Assembly (NCBI RefSeq): GCF_003226535.1
Contig: NZ_QKOB01000003.1
Coordinates: 248,001-312,000 of the forward strand
DNA from: Meiothermus sp. Pnk-1
GTDB taxonomy: Bacteria; Deinococcota; Deinococci; Deinococcales; Thermaceae
Direction of reading: 5' to 3'
DNA length: 64,000 nucleotides
Shown piece by piece: positions 50,210 to 58,045 of this stretch (position 1 is the stretch's first letter; every line of letters starts with the position of its first letter). Below the pieces are notes generated by a model that did no database searches, was not told the origin of the DNA, and saw only the letters and a program-made list of their open reading frames with translations. A program made the translations under genes and the position numbers.

Positions 50210-50434
50210 GATTGGTCCCCTAGGTGTACGAGCTTTGCTCGTCCCGATAGGGAATCGTCCCTTGGGTGTACGGCGGTACGCCGTCCCGATAGGGAATCTA
50301 CCTCTGGGTGTACCGGCCCTGCCGGTCCCGACAGGGGATCGTCCCCCGGGTGCACGGAGCTTGCTCCGTCCCGTAGGGAATCTACCCCCGGGTGTACGGC
50401 GGCACGCCGTCCCGATAGGGAATCTATCCCCGCG
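50210..50434 (+). repeat. Tandem array of five 42-43 bp hairpin units with changing stems
   Basis: Units at 50210-50252, 50253-50294, 50295-50336, 50337-50378, 50379-50420, plus a 14-bp remnant. Each has a short leader (AATCKWCCCYYGGGTGYAC-like), a hairpin core and GTCCCGATAGGG. Cores are ACGAGC-TTT-GCTCGT, ACGGCG-GTA-CGCCGT, ACCGGC-CCT-GCCGGT, ACGGAGC-TT-GCTCCGT and ACGGCG-GCA-CGCCGT. Both arms change together, so pairing is kept in all five. Units abut with no unique spacers. Confidence 0.9.
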
Positions 50435-50640: not shown

Positions 50641-53565
50641 TCAGTCCCCCGAACTGCTCTTGAGCGCCCGTTTAAAGATCTGCGGGGCAAAATCCGCTAC
50701 CGCACGGAGGAAACCGGTGATGCCCCGAGCCCGCCCGGGGGTGATGTAGACCGGCACCCCCCGATGTTCAGCCTCGAGCCTTACCGGCTCGGAGACATCG
50801 TGGCCGACGTAGCTGGAAATGATCATCAACCCGTGGGCCCGCTCCACCCGGTTTTGGATGCGGCGGATCGCCTCTCGCCCCGAACTGTTGGCGTCGGCGT
50901 CAAACCAGTCCAAGCGCAACCCCTGGGCCTCCAGGAAGGGCACCATCCGGCTCCTGAGCTGGGTGTGCCCCCCTACCACGATGAGGTACTCGCCGTGAAA
51001 CTTGGGCAGCCCCTCGTGCAGCAATCCTTGCGGGGTAAGGCCCTCGAGGGTGTCCGTGCTGCCGTCTAGCTGAGCGAGGGCCGCCGAAGTAGCCTTGAGC
51101 TCCTCTAGGTATAGCGCCAGCTCAGGGTCGGTGGGGTTTAAAAACAGCAGGTTACGTAGGATCTCCCGCGCAAGCTCGAGGTCTTTTTCCGCATAGTAGG
51201 CCACCTCGAGGGCTTTGCGCCAGACCTCTGCGGCTTTCTTGTAGGCCCCGCTACGCTCGAAGTGTTCGGCCAGATCGAACATCACCTCTAGAGCACCAGG
51301 GCGGTGGCGGAGTTCGTCCTCAAGCAGCTGGCGGGCTTCCTCAAGCCGCCCCCGGGCATACAGTGCCGCCAGGTATTCCCCCCGTACCTTCTCGGCTTCC
51401 TCGCTCTGGCGGAAGCTGCGGGAGAGCCGGTAAGCGAGGGCCAGCTGCTCCAGCGCAGGATGCGGGGTATGGGCCAGGGCGGAGGTCAGCAGGCGAAAAG
51501 CCTCCCAGGGGCCCTCGAGCTCCTCCACCAGGGCCAACACGCCCTCGAGCTGATCCTGCACCGCTTCCAGCCCAGCGTCGCGCACCCGGCCCAAGAATTC
51601 CCGGGCCAGCACCGGTTCGCCCGCGGCCAGCGCCTCCTGCGCCATCTGGTAGAGCACCGGAAGCGGGTAGGCCCTGAGGGCGTGGGCCCGTTTGTGATCC
51701 CCCAACACTTCCAGCATGGGGTAGCCGAGGGCCCGCTTGGTTAGGGCCAGGTAGTGGTAGGCCAATCCGGCAGACTCCCCCCGGCCCTCGCGGGCCGCGC
51801 GCTCGAGGTGTTGCAGGGCCTCCGGAAAGCGCTCCTCGCGGTAGCGGAGAAGCCCTAAGGCCAGCAAAGCCATGGCGTCCTCGGCTCTGGCTACCGCATC
51901 GGTGAGGTAAGGCTCGACCGCTTTGAGTTCGATCAGCAGGACGTCCTCCAGCCCTTCTGGCCCCCGCACCCGGAGTTGGGTCAAGGCCAACCCCAGGGCC
52001 CCCGCCGCTTCCCCTTGATCGTAGAGGCGGCGGGCATAGCGCTCGGCGCGGGCCCACAACCCTTGCTGCAACGCAGCCTGCAAGCCCAAAAACAAGAGCC
52101 CGCGGGTCAGCAGCTCGGGCGAGAGGTCCTCGACAAATTCCACCCGACGGCTGACCTCGCTCCAGTCCCCCTCGCGCCCAAAGCGGAAGGCCCGCTCCTC
52201 CAAGCGCTCGAGCGCGGCTTTGATGGGCAAGCGCGCCTCCGCCAGCCCCGACTCATACAGCTGACGCAGGGCATCCGAGAGCCGACCCAAGCCCAGGTAG
52301 ACCCGGCCCAGGGCCAACCGGTAGCGCCCGCCTCGGCTGCTGAGGGCCTCCAGGCGGGGCAAGGCCCGCTGGTACTCCCCCATCTCCACCCAGCACAGTA
52401 CCCGCAAGTCCTCGGCTTCCTCGCAAGCGGCCTGCTCGAGCGTCCCCTCGGCCTCCTCGAAGCGGGAGAGGGCCATCAAGGCCCGGCCCCGCAAGTAGGC
52501 CAGGCGCCCCTCCGCGTCCGGCGGGACCTGAGCCAGCACCGCGGCGTAATCCCCCTGCTCGAGCAAAGCCCATACCTCCTCCACCGAGGCCGTGGCTTTA
52601 TCCTCCACCCGCGGCGCTTCGGCCTCCTGCGCCTTGACCGGGGGCTCGAGCCGCAGTTCCTCGGGCATCCGGCCCAGCACCAGCACATACTCACCCTCGC
52701 CCACCCGGCGCACGTCGCTAAACCCCAACCGGATCAGGGCCTCGCCTACCGCCTCGAAGTTCTTGCCCAAGAAGGGGCCGTGCCCGTAGATCAGCAGCCC
52801 GCCGGGGCGCAACAGCCCGGCGAGCGGCATGAAGCGCTGAGGAATCTCGAAGTGGCGGTAGAACTCCTCGGTCTCGAGCCGGGCCGGGAGGTCCCCCAGG
52901 TATCCCTCAGGCAATACCGAGAGCATCAGGGCGGCGTCTACCGGCGGGATCCCCTCCAGCGCTTCACCATACCACCCTTGGTGCCACTCGATCCCCTGGG
53001 TACGGGCCTTGCCCACCGCCACCGCCTCCTCGACCCCCTCGAGGGCATGCCACTCGAGTTCGGGGCGCTTTTGCGCCAAAAGGTTGACCAGAAAACCGGT
53101 AAACGCCCCGATTTCCAGAACTCTACCCCGCTCGGGCAGCAGGGCCGGGAGTCGCTGAAGGTAAAACTCCAAGTAGGGAAGGTGCAGCGCGTACACCAAC
53201 CCCTCCAGACGCTCCCGGGGGTGCGCCAGTAGCTCGCCGTAAAATCTTCGCACCGCCTCTAAGCCGCCGCCGCTAAGGTATCGCTTCCAAGCCTGCAACA
53301 CCGGCTTGCGCCGGGCGGGGCTGCCAATCCGCTTGGCTAGCTCGCTCTCGAAGCGCCCGGGTGAGATTGGCCCATCCAGGTTGAAGTGCTGTTTGAGGTA
53401 GCGCCTGGCCTCGCCCTCCATCTCCCCTCCCGCGACCTGCTCCAAGTGTACCAAGTGGGCAGAACCCACCTGCCGAATTTCCACCACGGGCTGCGGTAAC
53501 CCGTTGGCGGCGTAAGCCGTGGGGTTCCAAGCGCCGCTTCGGGCTGGGGGCCGTACTGGGCACAA
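50641..53565 (-). CDS. Methyltransferase-like - TPR - DUF2325-like fusion protein
   Basis: A protein of up to 974 residues; start uncertain (TTG at 53565 or a later internal start). Residues about 85-330 look like a class I SAM-dependent methyltransferase: RGRVLEIGAFTGFLVNLL is motif I, with VDAALMLSVLPEGYL and LLRPGGLLIYGHG. Residues about 340-840 are helical repeats of TPR type (AEGTLEQAAC, YQRALPRLEAL, LARGILRNLLFLNPTDPELALYLEEL). The last ~110 residues, YLIVVGGHTQLRSRMVPFLEA to GVPVYITPGRARGITGFLRAV, resemble DUF2325. No signal peptide. It follows the deoxyhypusine-synthase-like gene by about 27 bp. Function unknown. Confidence 0.75.
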   Translation of the reverse strand: MCPVRPPARSGAWNPTAYAANGLPQPVVEIRQVGSAHLVHLEQVAGGEMEGEARRYLKQHFNLDGPISPGRFESELAKRIGSPARRKPVLQAWKRYLSGGGLEAVRRFYGELLAHPRERLEGLVYALHLPYLEFYLQRLPALLPERGRVLEIGAFTGFLVNLLAQKRPELEWHALEGVEEAVAVGKARTQGIEWHQGWYGEALEGIPPVDAALMLSVLPEGYLGDLPARLETEEFYRHFEIPQRFMPLAGLLRPGGLLIYGHGPFLGKNFEAVGEALIRLGFSDVRRVGEGEYVLVLGRMPEELRLEPPVKAQEAEAPRVEDKATASVEEVWALLEQGDYAAVLAQVPPDAEGRLAYLRGRALMALSRFEEAEGTLEQAACEEAEDLRVLCWVEMGEYQRALPRLEALSSRGGRYRLALGRVYLGLGRLSDALRQLYESGLAEARLPIKAALERLEERAFRFGREGDWSEVSRRVEFVEDLSPELLTRGLLFLGLQAALQQGLWARAERYARRLYDQGEAAGALGLALTQLRVRGPEGLEDVLLIELKAVEPYLTDAVARAEDAMALLALGLLRYREERFPEALQHLERAAREGRGESAGLAYHYLALTKRALGYPMLEVLGDHKRAHALRAYPLPVLYQMAQEALAAGEPVLAREFLGRVRDAGLEAVQDQLEGVLALVEELEGPWEAFRLLTSALAHTPHPALEQLALAYRLSRSFRQSEEAEKVRGEYLAALYARGRLEEARQLLEDELRHRPGALEVMFDLAEHFERSGAYKKAAEVWRKALEVAYYAEKDLELAREILRNLLFLNPTDPELALYLEELKATSAALAQLDGSTDTLEGLTPQGLLHEGLPKFHGEYLIVVGGHTQLRSRMVPFLEAQGLRLDWFDADANSSGREAIRRIQNRVERAHGLMIISSYVGHDVSEPVRLEAEHRGVPVYITPGRARGITGFLRAVADFAPQIFKRALKSSSGD

Positions 53566-53592: not shown

Positions 53593-54570
53593 TCACTCCC
53601 CCAAGATCAGGGCAAACATCAGCGGAGCCACGATAGAGGCATCGGATTCAATGATGTACTTGGGCGTATCCACCGCCAACTTTCCCCAAGTGATCTTCTC
53701 GTTCGGCACCGCTCCCGAGTATGACCCGTAGCTGGTGGTGGAGTCAGAGATCTGGCAGAAATATCCCCACATCGGGATATCGGGGCGGCGCATGTCCTGG
53801 TGGAGCATCGGCACCACGCAGATGGGGAAGTCCCCAGCGATGCCCCCGCCGATCTGGAAGAAGCCGATGGAATGACGCCGCGAGGTCTCCACATACCAAT
53901 CGGCCAACATCATCATGTACTCGATGCCGGTGCGGACGGTATGGACGTTTTTGATCTCCCCCGCCAGGCAGTGCCCAGCGTACATGTTGCCGGTGGTGGA
54001 GTCTTCCCAACCGGGAACCACGATGGGCAGATTTTTCTCCGCAGCGGCGACCATCCACGAATCCTTGGGGTCAATCTGGTAGTAGGGCTCGAGCCTTCCC
54101 GAACGGATAATCCGGTAGAGGAACTCGTGGGGGAAGTAACGCTCCCCCGCCTGATCAGCCCGGGTCCATTCCTCGATCAAAGCACCCTCCAAACGTCGCA
54201 TGGCCTCCATCTCCGGGATACAGGTGTCGGTAACCCGGTTCATGTGGCGCTCGAGCAGGGCTTGCTCGTCCTGCGGGGTGAGGTCGCGCCAGTGGGGTAC
54301 GCGCTCATAGTGGTCGTGGGCCACCAGGTTGAACAGGTCTTCCTCGAGGTTAGCCCCCGTACAGGAAATGGCCTGCACCTTGTCCTGGCGAATCATCTCC
54401 GCCAAGCTGATCCCCAGCTCGGCGGTGCTCATGGCTCCGGCCAGGGTGATCATCATCACCCCCCCCGAATCGAGGTGTTGGCGATACGCTTCGGCGGCTT
54501 CTACCAACGTCGCCGCGTTAAAGTGCCGGAAGTGGTGCTTGAGGAACCGACTCACTGCTCCACGAGACAT
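53593..54570 (-). CDS. Deoxyhypusine synthase-like protein
   Basis: A 325-residue homologue of deoxyhypusine synthase, which in eukaryotes and archaea transfers the aminobutyl group of spermidine to eIF5A/aIF5A using NAD. The catalytic lysine is kept as K297 in EKITWGKLAVDT, and DASIVAPLMFAL follows. The NAD-binding block GGVMMITLAGAMSTAELG and the IGGGIAGDFPI segment are also present. Bacteria lack eIF5A; some bacterial members make homospermidine from putrescine. Either activity would fit a lineage rich in polyamines. It has a structured 5' leader (see 54571-54684). Confidence 0.88.
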   Translation of the reverse strand: MSRGAVSRFLKHHFRHFNAATLVEAAEAYRQHLDSGGVMMITLAGAMSTAELGISLAEMIRQDKVQAISCTGANLEEDLFNLVAHDHYERVPHWRDLTPQDEQALLERHMNRVTDTCIPEMEAMRRLEGALIEEWTRADQAGERYFPHEFLYRIIRSGRLEPYYQIDPKDSWMVAAAEKNLPIVVPGWEDSTTGNMYAGHCLAGEIKNVHTVRTGIEYMMMLADWYVETSRRHSIGFFQIGGGIAGDFPICVVPMLHQDMRRPDIPMWGYFCQISDSTTSYGSYSGAVPNEKITWGKLAVDTPKYIIESDASIVAPLMFALILGE

Positions 54571-54684
54571 GAAAACCCCCTTGGGTCGTTTTCCCGGCCA
54601 CAGCCGGGCTCAGTCTTCGCGGGGTGGGCGAACCTTCCGGACTCCCCCCTTCGGCAGCAGGGTATACCCGCCACCTAGCGTCCG
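54571..54684 (-). ncRNA. Structured 5' leader of the deoxyhypusine-synthase-like gene
   Basis: Between a promoter and the ATG lies about 114 nt with nested hairpins. CGGAC (54680-54684, minus strand) pairs with GTCCG (54638-54642). Inside it GGTGGC-GGG and CCC-T-GCTGCC pair around a TATA loop (54653-54675). CCCGGC and GCCGGG pair at 54593-54608. A last stem, AAAAC with GTTTT (54572-54592), places the ribosome-binding AAGGGGG in a hairpin. No known riboswitch class fits. A cis-regulatory RNA is inferred. Confidence 0.5.
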
Positions 54685-54690
54685 CCTGAG

Positions 54691-54718
54691 AGTTTACCGA
54701 ATCCAGGAAGGAAATCAA
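54691..54718 (-). promoter_or_regulatory. Promoter of the deoxyhypusine-synthase-like gene
   Basis: On the minus strand TTGATT (54718-54713), 16 bp and TAAACT (54696-54691). Transcription should start near 54684, giving the long leader described above. Confidence 0.5.
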
Positions 54719-54833
54719 TAAGTACATCACGGGGCGGTGGCTGTTTGGTCTCGCGTCGCACCAGACCGCTGGAGTACGTGCAAAACGAAAAAACGTTTCG
54801 ATACTATGTGAAAACCTCAGAGGGCTCTCACCC

Positions 54834-54870
54834 CTGGGGGCTACCTGTACCCCAGAAGGGCCTATATAAT
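54834..54870 (+). promoter_or_regulatory. bmpA promoter with inverted repeat
   Basis: TATAAT at 54865-54870 is a perfect -10 box. CTGGGG (54834-54839) and CCCCAG (54850-54855) form an inverted repeat around the -35 position and could be an operator. A second inverted repeat, CGAAA/TTTCG, lies at 54786-54800. The -35 itself is weak. Confidence 0.55.
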
Positions 54871-54912
54871 CCCTTTGGCGTGAGCCATTGCAACAACTTA
54901 CGGAGGAGCCAG

Positions 54913-56043
<1,131 letters not shown>

Positions 56044-56124: not shown

Positions 56125-57669
56125 ATGAGCGATCCGGTATCCGGCCCGATCCCATCTCCGAAAAACCCTACTGCCCTCGAGCTCAAAGGCATCACCAAAC
56201 GTTACCCGCTGGTGCTCGCCAACGACCGCATCAGCCTCGACCTGCGCTGGGGTGAGGTGCTCGCCATCGTGGGGGAGAACGGCGCGGGTAAAAGCACCCT
56301 GATGAAGATCGTCTACGGGCTGGTCAAGCCGGATGCAGGGGAAATCTGGATCGACGGCGAAAAGGTAGATGCGAAAGGACCTTCCGACGCAATAGCGCGG
56401 GGTGTGGGGATGGTCCACCAGCACTTCATGCTGGTAGACCCCTTCACCGTGCTGGAGAACGTGATCCTGGGCTCGGAGCCCGGCACGAAGGGGCAGATCA
56501 ACCTAACCCAGGCCCGGGCACAGGTATCGGCGCTGTTGCAAGAGCTCGAGTTCGAGCTCGAGCTCGATGCCAAGGTCGAAGACCTGCCGGTAGGCCTCCA
56601 GCAGCGGGTGGAGATCCTCAAGGCCATCTACCGCCACGCCAAGATCCTCATCCTCGACGAGCCCACCGCCGTGCTCACCCCCCAGGAGGCCGAGGACCTG
56701 TTTCGCTTTCTGCGCAAATTCGTCGCAGGGGGTGGAGCAGTGATCTTTATCAGCCACAAGCTAGGGGAGGTGATCCAGGTTTCAGACCGGGTCACGGTGA
56801 TCCGCGATGGCCGGGTGGTGGGCACCGTTAACACCAAAGACACCACCGTCCGTGAGCTGGCCCGGATGATGGTGGGTCGAGAAGTGATCCTCACCGTGAA
56901 CAAAAAAGAAGCCACCCCTAAAGAGGTGGTGCTCGAGGCCAAAGATTTGGTAGTGGACTCCAAAAACCCCAAACACAGCATCAAGAACATCGGCTTCCAG
57001 GTGAGGGCCGGGGAGATCGTGGGTATCGCCGGGGTGGAGGGAAACGGCCAAAGTGAGCTGGTCGAGGCCATCACTGGGCTCAGGCCCTACAAAGGCACCG
57101 TCCTCTATGGCGGCACGCCCCTTCCTCCCAAGGCCCGGGTGGTGCGGGAATGGGGGCTCTCCCACATCCCCGAGGACCGTAACGCACGGGGATTGGTGCT
57201 TGATTTCTCAACCCGAGAGAACCTGATCTTGGGCGACCACTACCGCAAACCCTACGCCGGTTTCCTGGGGTTCATCGACGAGGCAGCGGTGGAAGAGCAC
57301 GCCGAGGCAGTGGTGGAAGCTTTTGACGTGCGGCCCCGCAGCACCGCGCTCGAGGCTCGCCGCTACTCGGGGGGGAACGCCCAGAAGATCATCGTGGGTC
57401 GGGAGCTTTCCCGCAAGCCCAAAGTCCTCATCGCCGCCCAGCCTACCCGGGGAGTGGATATCGGGGCGATCGAGTTCATCCACGAAAACATCGTGGCGGC
57501 CCGCGATCAAGGGATGGGGGTACTGTTAGTCTCGGCAGATTTGAACGAGGTCCTATCCTTGGCCGATCGTATCCTGGTGATGTACGAGGGCCGGATTATG
57601 GGCGAACTCACCCCCAAGGAGGCTACCGAGGAGAAACTGGGGCTCCTGATGGCAGGAATTACGTCTTAG
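56125..57669 (+). CDS. Nucleoside/simple-sugar ABC ATP-binding protein (NupA/YufO-like, two domains)
   Basis: A 514-residue double ATPase. The first domain has Walker [21 protein letters not shown] in place of the canonical signature, and Walker [12 protein letters not shown]. The second domain has a degenerate P-loop [10 protein letters not shown] and signature [15 protein letters not shown], then [11 protein letters not shown], all usual in this family. It would drive nucleoside uptake with BmpA. No permease genes follow: the next ~375 bp are repeats and then an opposite-strand gene. Confidence 0.9.
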
Positions 57670-57775: not shown

Positions 57776-57780
57776 TTCGT

Positions 57781-57836
57781 ACGACGTACGACGTACGACG
57801 TATGACGTATGACGTACGACGTATGATGTGGGACGT
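57781..57836 (+). repeat. Perfect heptad array of eight units
   Basis: ACGACGT three times, ATGACGT twice, ACGACGT, ATGATGT and GGGACGT run in exact 7-bp register. Confidence 0.9.
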
Positions 57837-58045
57837 ACTACCAGCAGGGTAGGACTGGGGTATGGTTACCCTCGGCGGGCCATACGCCCCGCGCCAGGTT
57901 GGAAGCGTACAGCCCGGATAAGCCCCCTCCAGCAGGATCCGTGTCGCAGCCGGGATTTCGCGCGCCCCTGATGGAACGCCTTGGGCGGGATGGTCATGCG
58001 TCCTAGTACGTACTTCTCCCTACGAGGGGTGACCGGGCTTCGGTA

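Follow-up and report, generated by a model that had tools for sequence, protein, structure and literature searches.

Several small pseudoknotted riboswitches act on translation, among them the preQ1-I, preQ1-II, preQ1-III, SAM-II and guanidine-III classes. The Thermaceae leader described here resembles these in being short and in combining a hairpin with a pseudoknot (here proposed) that adjoins the ribosome-binding site (RBS), but it matches none of them in sequence or by covariance model and its conserved letters differ. For polyamines, the first convincing riboswitch was reported in 2023 as a spermidine-responsive variant of SAM-I (PMC10853860); it too is a leader RNA at polyamine genes, but it couples a SAM-I fold to transcription termination, whereas the Thermaceae leader has neither a SAM match nor a terminator and stands before other genes in another phylum. 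Orphan leaders have also been described at polyamine-related genes in the form of the odc1 and potE motifs (PMC8632094), although both the genes and the motifs are different from those considered here, and that paper mentions neither Thermus/Deinococcus nor deoxyhypusine synthase (DHS). More generally, the published orphan riboswitch candidates (PMC2864571, PMC11109978) share with the present element a conserved leader, a single gene association and a ligand that is not assigned; the present element differs in being restricted to the Thermaceae, and the main texts of both papers mention neither Thermus nor deoxyhypusine synthase. A search of the open-licence literature on TTHA1570, on homospermidine together with riboswitches and on Thermus leaders returned no report of this element.

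The locus lies in a stretch of 64,000 nucleotides from Meiothermus sp. Pnk-1 (the window, to which all coordinates refer). On its minus strand, a leader of about 114 nt runs from a predicted promoter at 54691-54718 to the ATG at 54570; the sequence and coordinates proposed for it in a first-pass annotation were confirmed. The promoter consists of a -35 box (TTGATT, 54718-54713), a 16-nt spacer and a -10 box (TAAACT, 54696-54691), and although it was missing from the output of a strict sigma-70 scan, the combination of TTGAAT or TTGATT, 16 nt and TACACT or TAAACT recurs at the equivalent place before many orthologues. Directly downstream of the leader is a DHS-like gene of 325 aa (53593-54570, minus strand; Pfam DS, 131 bits), in agreement with the earlier assignment to a polyamine-type enzyme. 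No terminator-like structure was found between the conserved core of the leader and the gene, and the arrangement of a transcription-attenuation leader is therefore absent. Divergent from the operon, the window encodes an adjoining PnrA/BMP-type substrate-binding protein (54745-56043, plus strand) and a nearby sugar/nucleoside-type ABC ATPase (56125-57669, plus strand). Two tandem arrays were also observed in the window, one of 4.6 copies of a unit of about 42 bp (CGTCCCGATAGGGAATC...GGTGTACG; 50240-50432) 3' of the operon, and one of the 7-bp unit CGTACGA (57778-57838).

Comparison of orthologous leaders revealed a core of the form GGCGY…RAA-GGGGGG-AGYC-N3-9-CGCCCACCCCGCG, located at 54684-54618 on the minus strand of the window, between the conserved promoter and the RBS of the DHS-like gene. 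When the window leader was used as a DNA query, short matches were obtained immediately 5' of the DHS-like gene in other genera, including Thermus, and across the leaders compared the GGGGGGAGYC-N3-9-CGCCCACCCCGCG part is preceded by GGCGY and usually also by (R)AA. A near-invariant part of 35 nt (about 54652-54618) is present in 47 of 50 Thermaceae genomes, in one copy each and always before the DHS-like gene. The exact core pattern occurs once per genome in 32 genomes representing all five Thermaceae genera, with zero matches to the reversed-pattern controls, and a covariance model of the core (R1) gave one strong match at the DHS-like gene in each of 47 of the 50 genomes (40-60 bits, E <= 4e-7; 51.2 bits for the window), the next-best match anywhere scoring 25.7 bits. 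The core is thus a near-invariant sense element found once per genome in the promoter-RBS interval of the sole DHS-like gene, with the conserved sequence and structure on the same strand in the 5' leaders of orthologues that are expected of a structured cis-regulatory leader RNA. Of the three exceptions, one (G020) is a contig that ends inside the gene, and the other two carry a degenerate core. In these two sister species (leaders L020 and L022, from G014 and G007) the DHS-like gene and its RBS are kept while the core reads GGGAGGGAGCTTTCCCTGGCCGCCC and GGGGAGCCTCCCCTGGCCGCCCC, respectively, a pattern that has the appearance of natural loss of the element.

Outside the Thermaceae the core was not detected. 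The covariance model gave no strong match in 61 other Deinococcota genomes; among 21 genomes tested from other Deinococcota families, nine have a DHS gene and all nine lack the core in its leader, and one of the families sampled (f4) has neither gene nor core. The core was also absent from 80 window-type DHS loci of other phyla, from 32 whole genomes of other phyla carrying a window-type DHS (no strong match anywhere) and from the viral contigs searched. Weak matches to the model in other families (at most 25 bits) were set aside as chance, those inspected lying in unrelated and apparently coding sequence such as an NADH dehydrogenase region. Comparison with 4,227 Rfam families gave no match at the gathering threshold in the window, and a search in E-value mode with the leader and four relatives gave only weak unrelated matches and none to the SAM clan; the leader likewise shows no match to the spermidine riboswitch or SAM-I clan covariance models. 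The earlier statement that no known class fits is consistent with these searches.

The Meiothermus-like and Thermus leaders, run separately through RNAalifold, yielded an identical nested core, in which a stem CGY/GCG closes around the hairpin GGGGGG/CC-A-CCCC. In the window the closing stem, PA, spans 54618-54680 on the minus strand (CGC 54680-54678 with GCG 54620-54618), and the core hairpin, P3, spans 54621-54649 on the same strand (GGGGGG 54649-54644 with CC-A-CCCC 54627-54621), with invariant letters at A54643, G54642 and A54625. PA is invariant except for C or U at a G-paired position, the third closing pair always being C-G or U-G, and covariation is modest because PA and P3 hardly vary. 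Between them lies a variable inserted hairpin, P2 (GGTGGCGGG-TATA-CCCTGCTGCC; 54653-54675, minus strand), which corresponds to the GGG-TATA-CCC hairpin that had been predicted in the first-pass annotation; the hairpin is present but is not conserved in sequence. In Meiothermus-like leaders this position holds hairpins differing in sequence and length, with compensatory C-G/U-A changes, and in Thermus and one further leader (L021) it is replaced by 4-7 nt. For the whole Meiothermus-like structure, nine cells with two-sided changes were counted against 3.4 in shuffles (reached by 0 of 500), and in slid controls the paired fraction fell from 96% to about 50%. These counts were made on anchored condensed and clade-wise alignments, since a whole-leader MAFFT alignment leaves the GGCG element unaligned owing to the hairpin inserts. 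An alternative pairing of the upstream GGCG with the CGCC of the core was dropped, as the GGACG of the window genus breaks it without compensation.

The CGGAC/GTCCG pairing had been drawn as a stem closing a multi-element structure. The complementary strands exist (CGGAC 54684-54680, GTCCG 54642-54638) and show compensatory changes, but they are better read as a pseudoknot, probably between the tail and the hairpin loop of the core: yxGG on the 5' side of the closing stem is complementary to a YCxy stretch of the hairpin loop, so that in the window CGGA (54684-54681) would face TCCG (54641-54638; whole span 54638-54684, minus strand). Support for this proposed helix is modest. Relative to the GGC/GCC of other lineages, C-to-A and C-to-T changes compensate, with A and U in the window genus in place of the G and C of other lineages, and the pair that follows takes the form U-A, C-G or G-C depending on the lineage; on the other side, the third pair is a C-A, U-U or G-G mismatch in three lineages, so that one outer pair is broken. 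The permutation p value was about 0.02-0.04, with the register set by eye and one ambiguous sequence (L005) excluded from the pair count; the number of two-sided-change cells was matched by 4 of 500 shuffles and the covariation score by 74 of 500. Overall, the modeled fold (a closing stem, a hairpin whose bulge is invariant, a further hairpin inserted in some leaders, and a pseudoknot joining 5' flank and loop) appears supported, but more weakly than the core sequence.

The 3' portion of the leader is far more local. A CCCGGC-TGTG-GCCGGG hairpin (54593-54608, minus strand) exists in the window as had been described, but it is a genus-specific insert that the window species shares only with a single sister species, in which it reads CCTGGC-CATG-GCTGGG. 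Similarly, the last stem, an AAAAC/GTTTT pairing that holds the AAGGGGG RBS (54582-54576) within 54572-54592 on the minus strand, can be drawn but is kept only in that sister species. The leader recognized in the first-pass annotation is real and conserved, and the absence of conservation among orthologous leaders, which would have refuted that annotation, was not observed. What is conserved, however, is the GGGGGGAG...CGCCCACCCCGCG core together with its short closing stem, and this core had not been singled out. The distance from core to RBS is mostly 4-10 nt, about 35 nt in the window and 50-85 nt in two others; with a hairpin and an RBS stem lying between in the window genus, coupling there must differ. 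Leader L008 carries, between promoter and core and about 50-100 nt before the latter, an extended and almost perfect inverted repeat (GGTTTTCATGA...TCATGAAAACC), which may be a small mobile element.

Based on its sequence, the window DHS-like product is a probable NAD-dependent aminobutyl/amidinobutyl transferase, and the lysine of the ITWGK motif is present. It passes no NCBIfam equivalog cut-off; against an equivalog with a cut-off of 500 it scored 84 bits, as compared with 547 bits for the protein of genome G049 (CdmS type). Orthologues of the window type occur in all Meiothermus-like Thermaceae and in many phyla, whereas in Thermus and its sister genus g5 the gene belongs to another DHS subfamily, about 28% identical to the window type. 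The tree separates the two subfamilies with 100/100 support, each having relatives outside the Thermaceae. All 50 Thermaceae genomes have one DHS-like gene, split into two pieces in one fragmented genome. The shared core precedes both the window type and the caldomycin synthase of Thermus, which belongs to the route from agmatine to homospermidine, and only these DHS-like genes. The agmatine route is encoded in the window's genome, with SpeA found in 10 of 10 tested Thermaceae; 12 of 12 genomes tested have an arginase-type ureohydrolase.

Located 3' of the DHS-like gene, and probably in the same operon, is a gene for a TPR/DUF2325-like protein of 974 aa (50641-53565, minus strand), whose N-terminal part looks methyltransferase-like by eye and which also has TPRs and, at its C-terminus, a weak resemblance to DUF2325. 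This gene follows the DHS-like gene in Thermus, in the window genus and in G004; it is not adjacent in four genomes (G002, G008, G010 and G015), in which the core is kept. The protein is 61-63% identical between the window and Thermus, where it stands behind the other DHS type. Because one core precedes both subfamilies and the downstream gene is conserved to this degree, the simplest reading of the sequences is that the enzyme was replaced in place under a retained leader, suggesting that the element goes with the enzyme function and not with the coding sequence.

Taken together, we favor, with about even confidence, a compact cis-regulatory RNA that would control translation of the DHS-like (homospermidine-type) gene, plausibly in response to a metabolite from the agmatine/homospermidine pathway. 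Under the proposed mechanism, formation of the core fold, which a small molecule from the agmatine/caldomycin/homospermidine pathway would stabilize, would change access to the adjacent RBS; in the window genus, the signal would have to pass through the inserted hairpin and the RBS stem. Translational control is favored over attenuation because the leader lacks a terminator and the core usually abuts the RBS. The small-molecule signal is suggested more weakly, on the grounds that the element has persisted through changes of the enzyme and of the downstream neighbors. A point against the favored reading is that a polyamine sensor might be expected at several genes per genome, whereas one carries the core. 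The further possibility of a new riboswitch class, one that binds a guanidino-polyamine or a homospermidine-pathway metabolite itself (agmatine, caldomycin, aminobutylagmatine or homospermidine) and that stayed in place when a distant paralogue replaced the enzyme under its control, can be put forward only tentatively.

That same persistence argues against autoregulation by either protein, which bears on the possibility that translation is blocked or aided by a regulatory or RNA-binding protein (the DHS-like enzyme, the TPR/DUF2325 protein or a trans factor) bound to the core in the RNA. One site per genome and a strongly fixed sequence with a bulged A in a small hairpin are features of many protein-RNA sites; autoregulation by the enzyme, however, is hard to reconcile with a core that stays the same before two enzymes that are 28% identical, and the TPR protein is no neighbor in the four genomes named above. 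Such a protein-binding leader is considered unlikely, though it deserves weight. A double-stranded transcription-factor site downstream of the start site would account for the very high primary-sequence conservation and the little covariation of the G/C stem, yet such an operator is very improbable given the sequence pattern: spacing within the motif varies (loop 3-9 nt, linker 4 to about 40 nt), with inserts that are themselves hairpins, while the paired parts stay constant; the core is always on the sense strand, with 38-121 nt separating it from the -10 box upstream and, in most cases, 4-10 nt from the RBS that follows; and only C and U alternate opposite G in PA. These variable lengths, the C/U alternation and the compensatory pairs of P2 (0 of 500 shuffles) fit an element acting as RNA and not as a fixed DNA site.

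Folding energy contributes nothing to the case. Minimum-energy folds that include the coding start differ between species, the window leader alone (-54.1 kcal/mol, z = -1.04) is no better than chance and 39 family leaders have a mean z of -0.4; energies were therefore rejected as evidence and the argument rests on comparison. The notion that any G+C-rich leader folds, although in line with energies equal to those of shuffled sequence, is excluded by the retention of the core in 47 of 50 genomes and five genera and is given practically no weight. An RNA thermosensor, or a passive 5' stabilizer or ribosome standby element of thermophiles acting without a ligand, would suit the G+C-rich leader and the finding that T. 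thermophilus has more homospermidine when grown at lower temperature (PMC10981699), but the unpaired letters (A, AGYC, the bulged A and CGCC) vary no more than the paired ones, an invariance that a melting stem does not require. The G-C stems are still folded at 60-70 °C in the predictions for some species, and the element occurs at one gene only; these observations make this explanation improbable.

The leader is probably a new gene switch, and it is filed as a new orphan cis-regulatory RNA of the Thermaceae; the term riboswitch is reserved for the case that a ligand is demonstrated. The gene swap provides an unusual argument that the leader tracks the chemistry of the pathway and not the protein sequence. 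For T. thermophilus, a cdmS deletion strain is ready and the metabolites are known. A leader that is unrelated to the SAM-I variant and that precedes homospermidine-type synthases would offer a clean test of whether RNA senses agmatine-derived polyamines in thermophiles.
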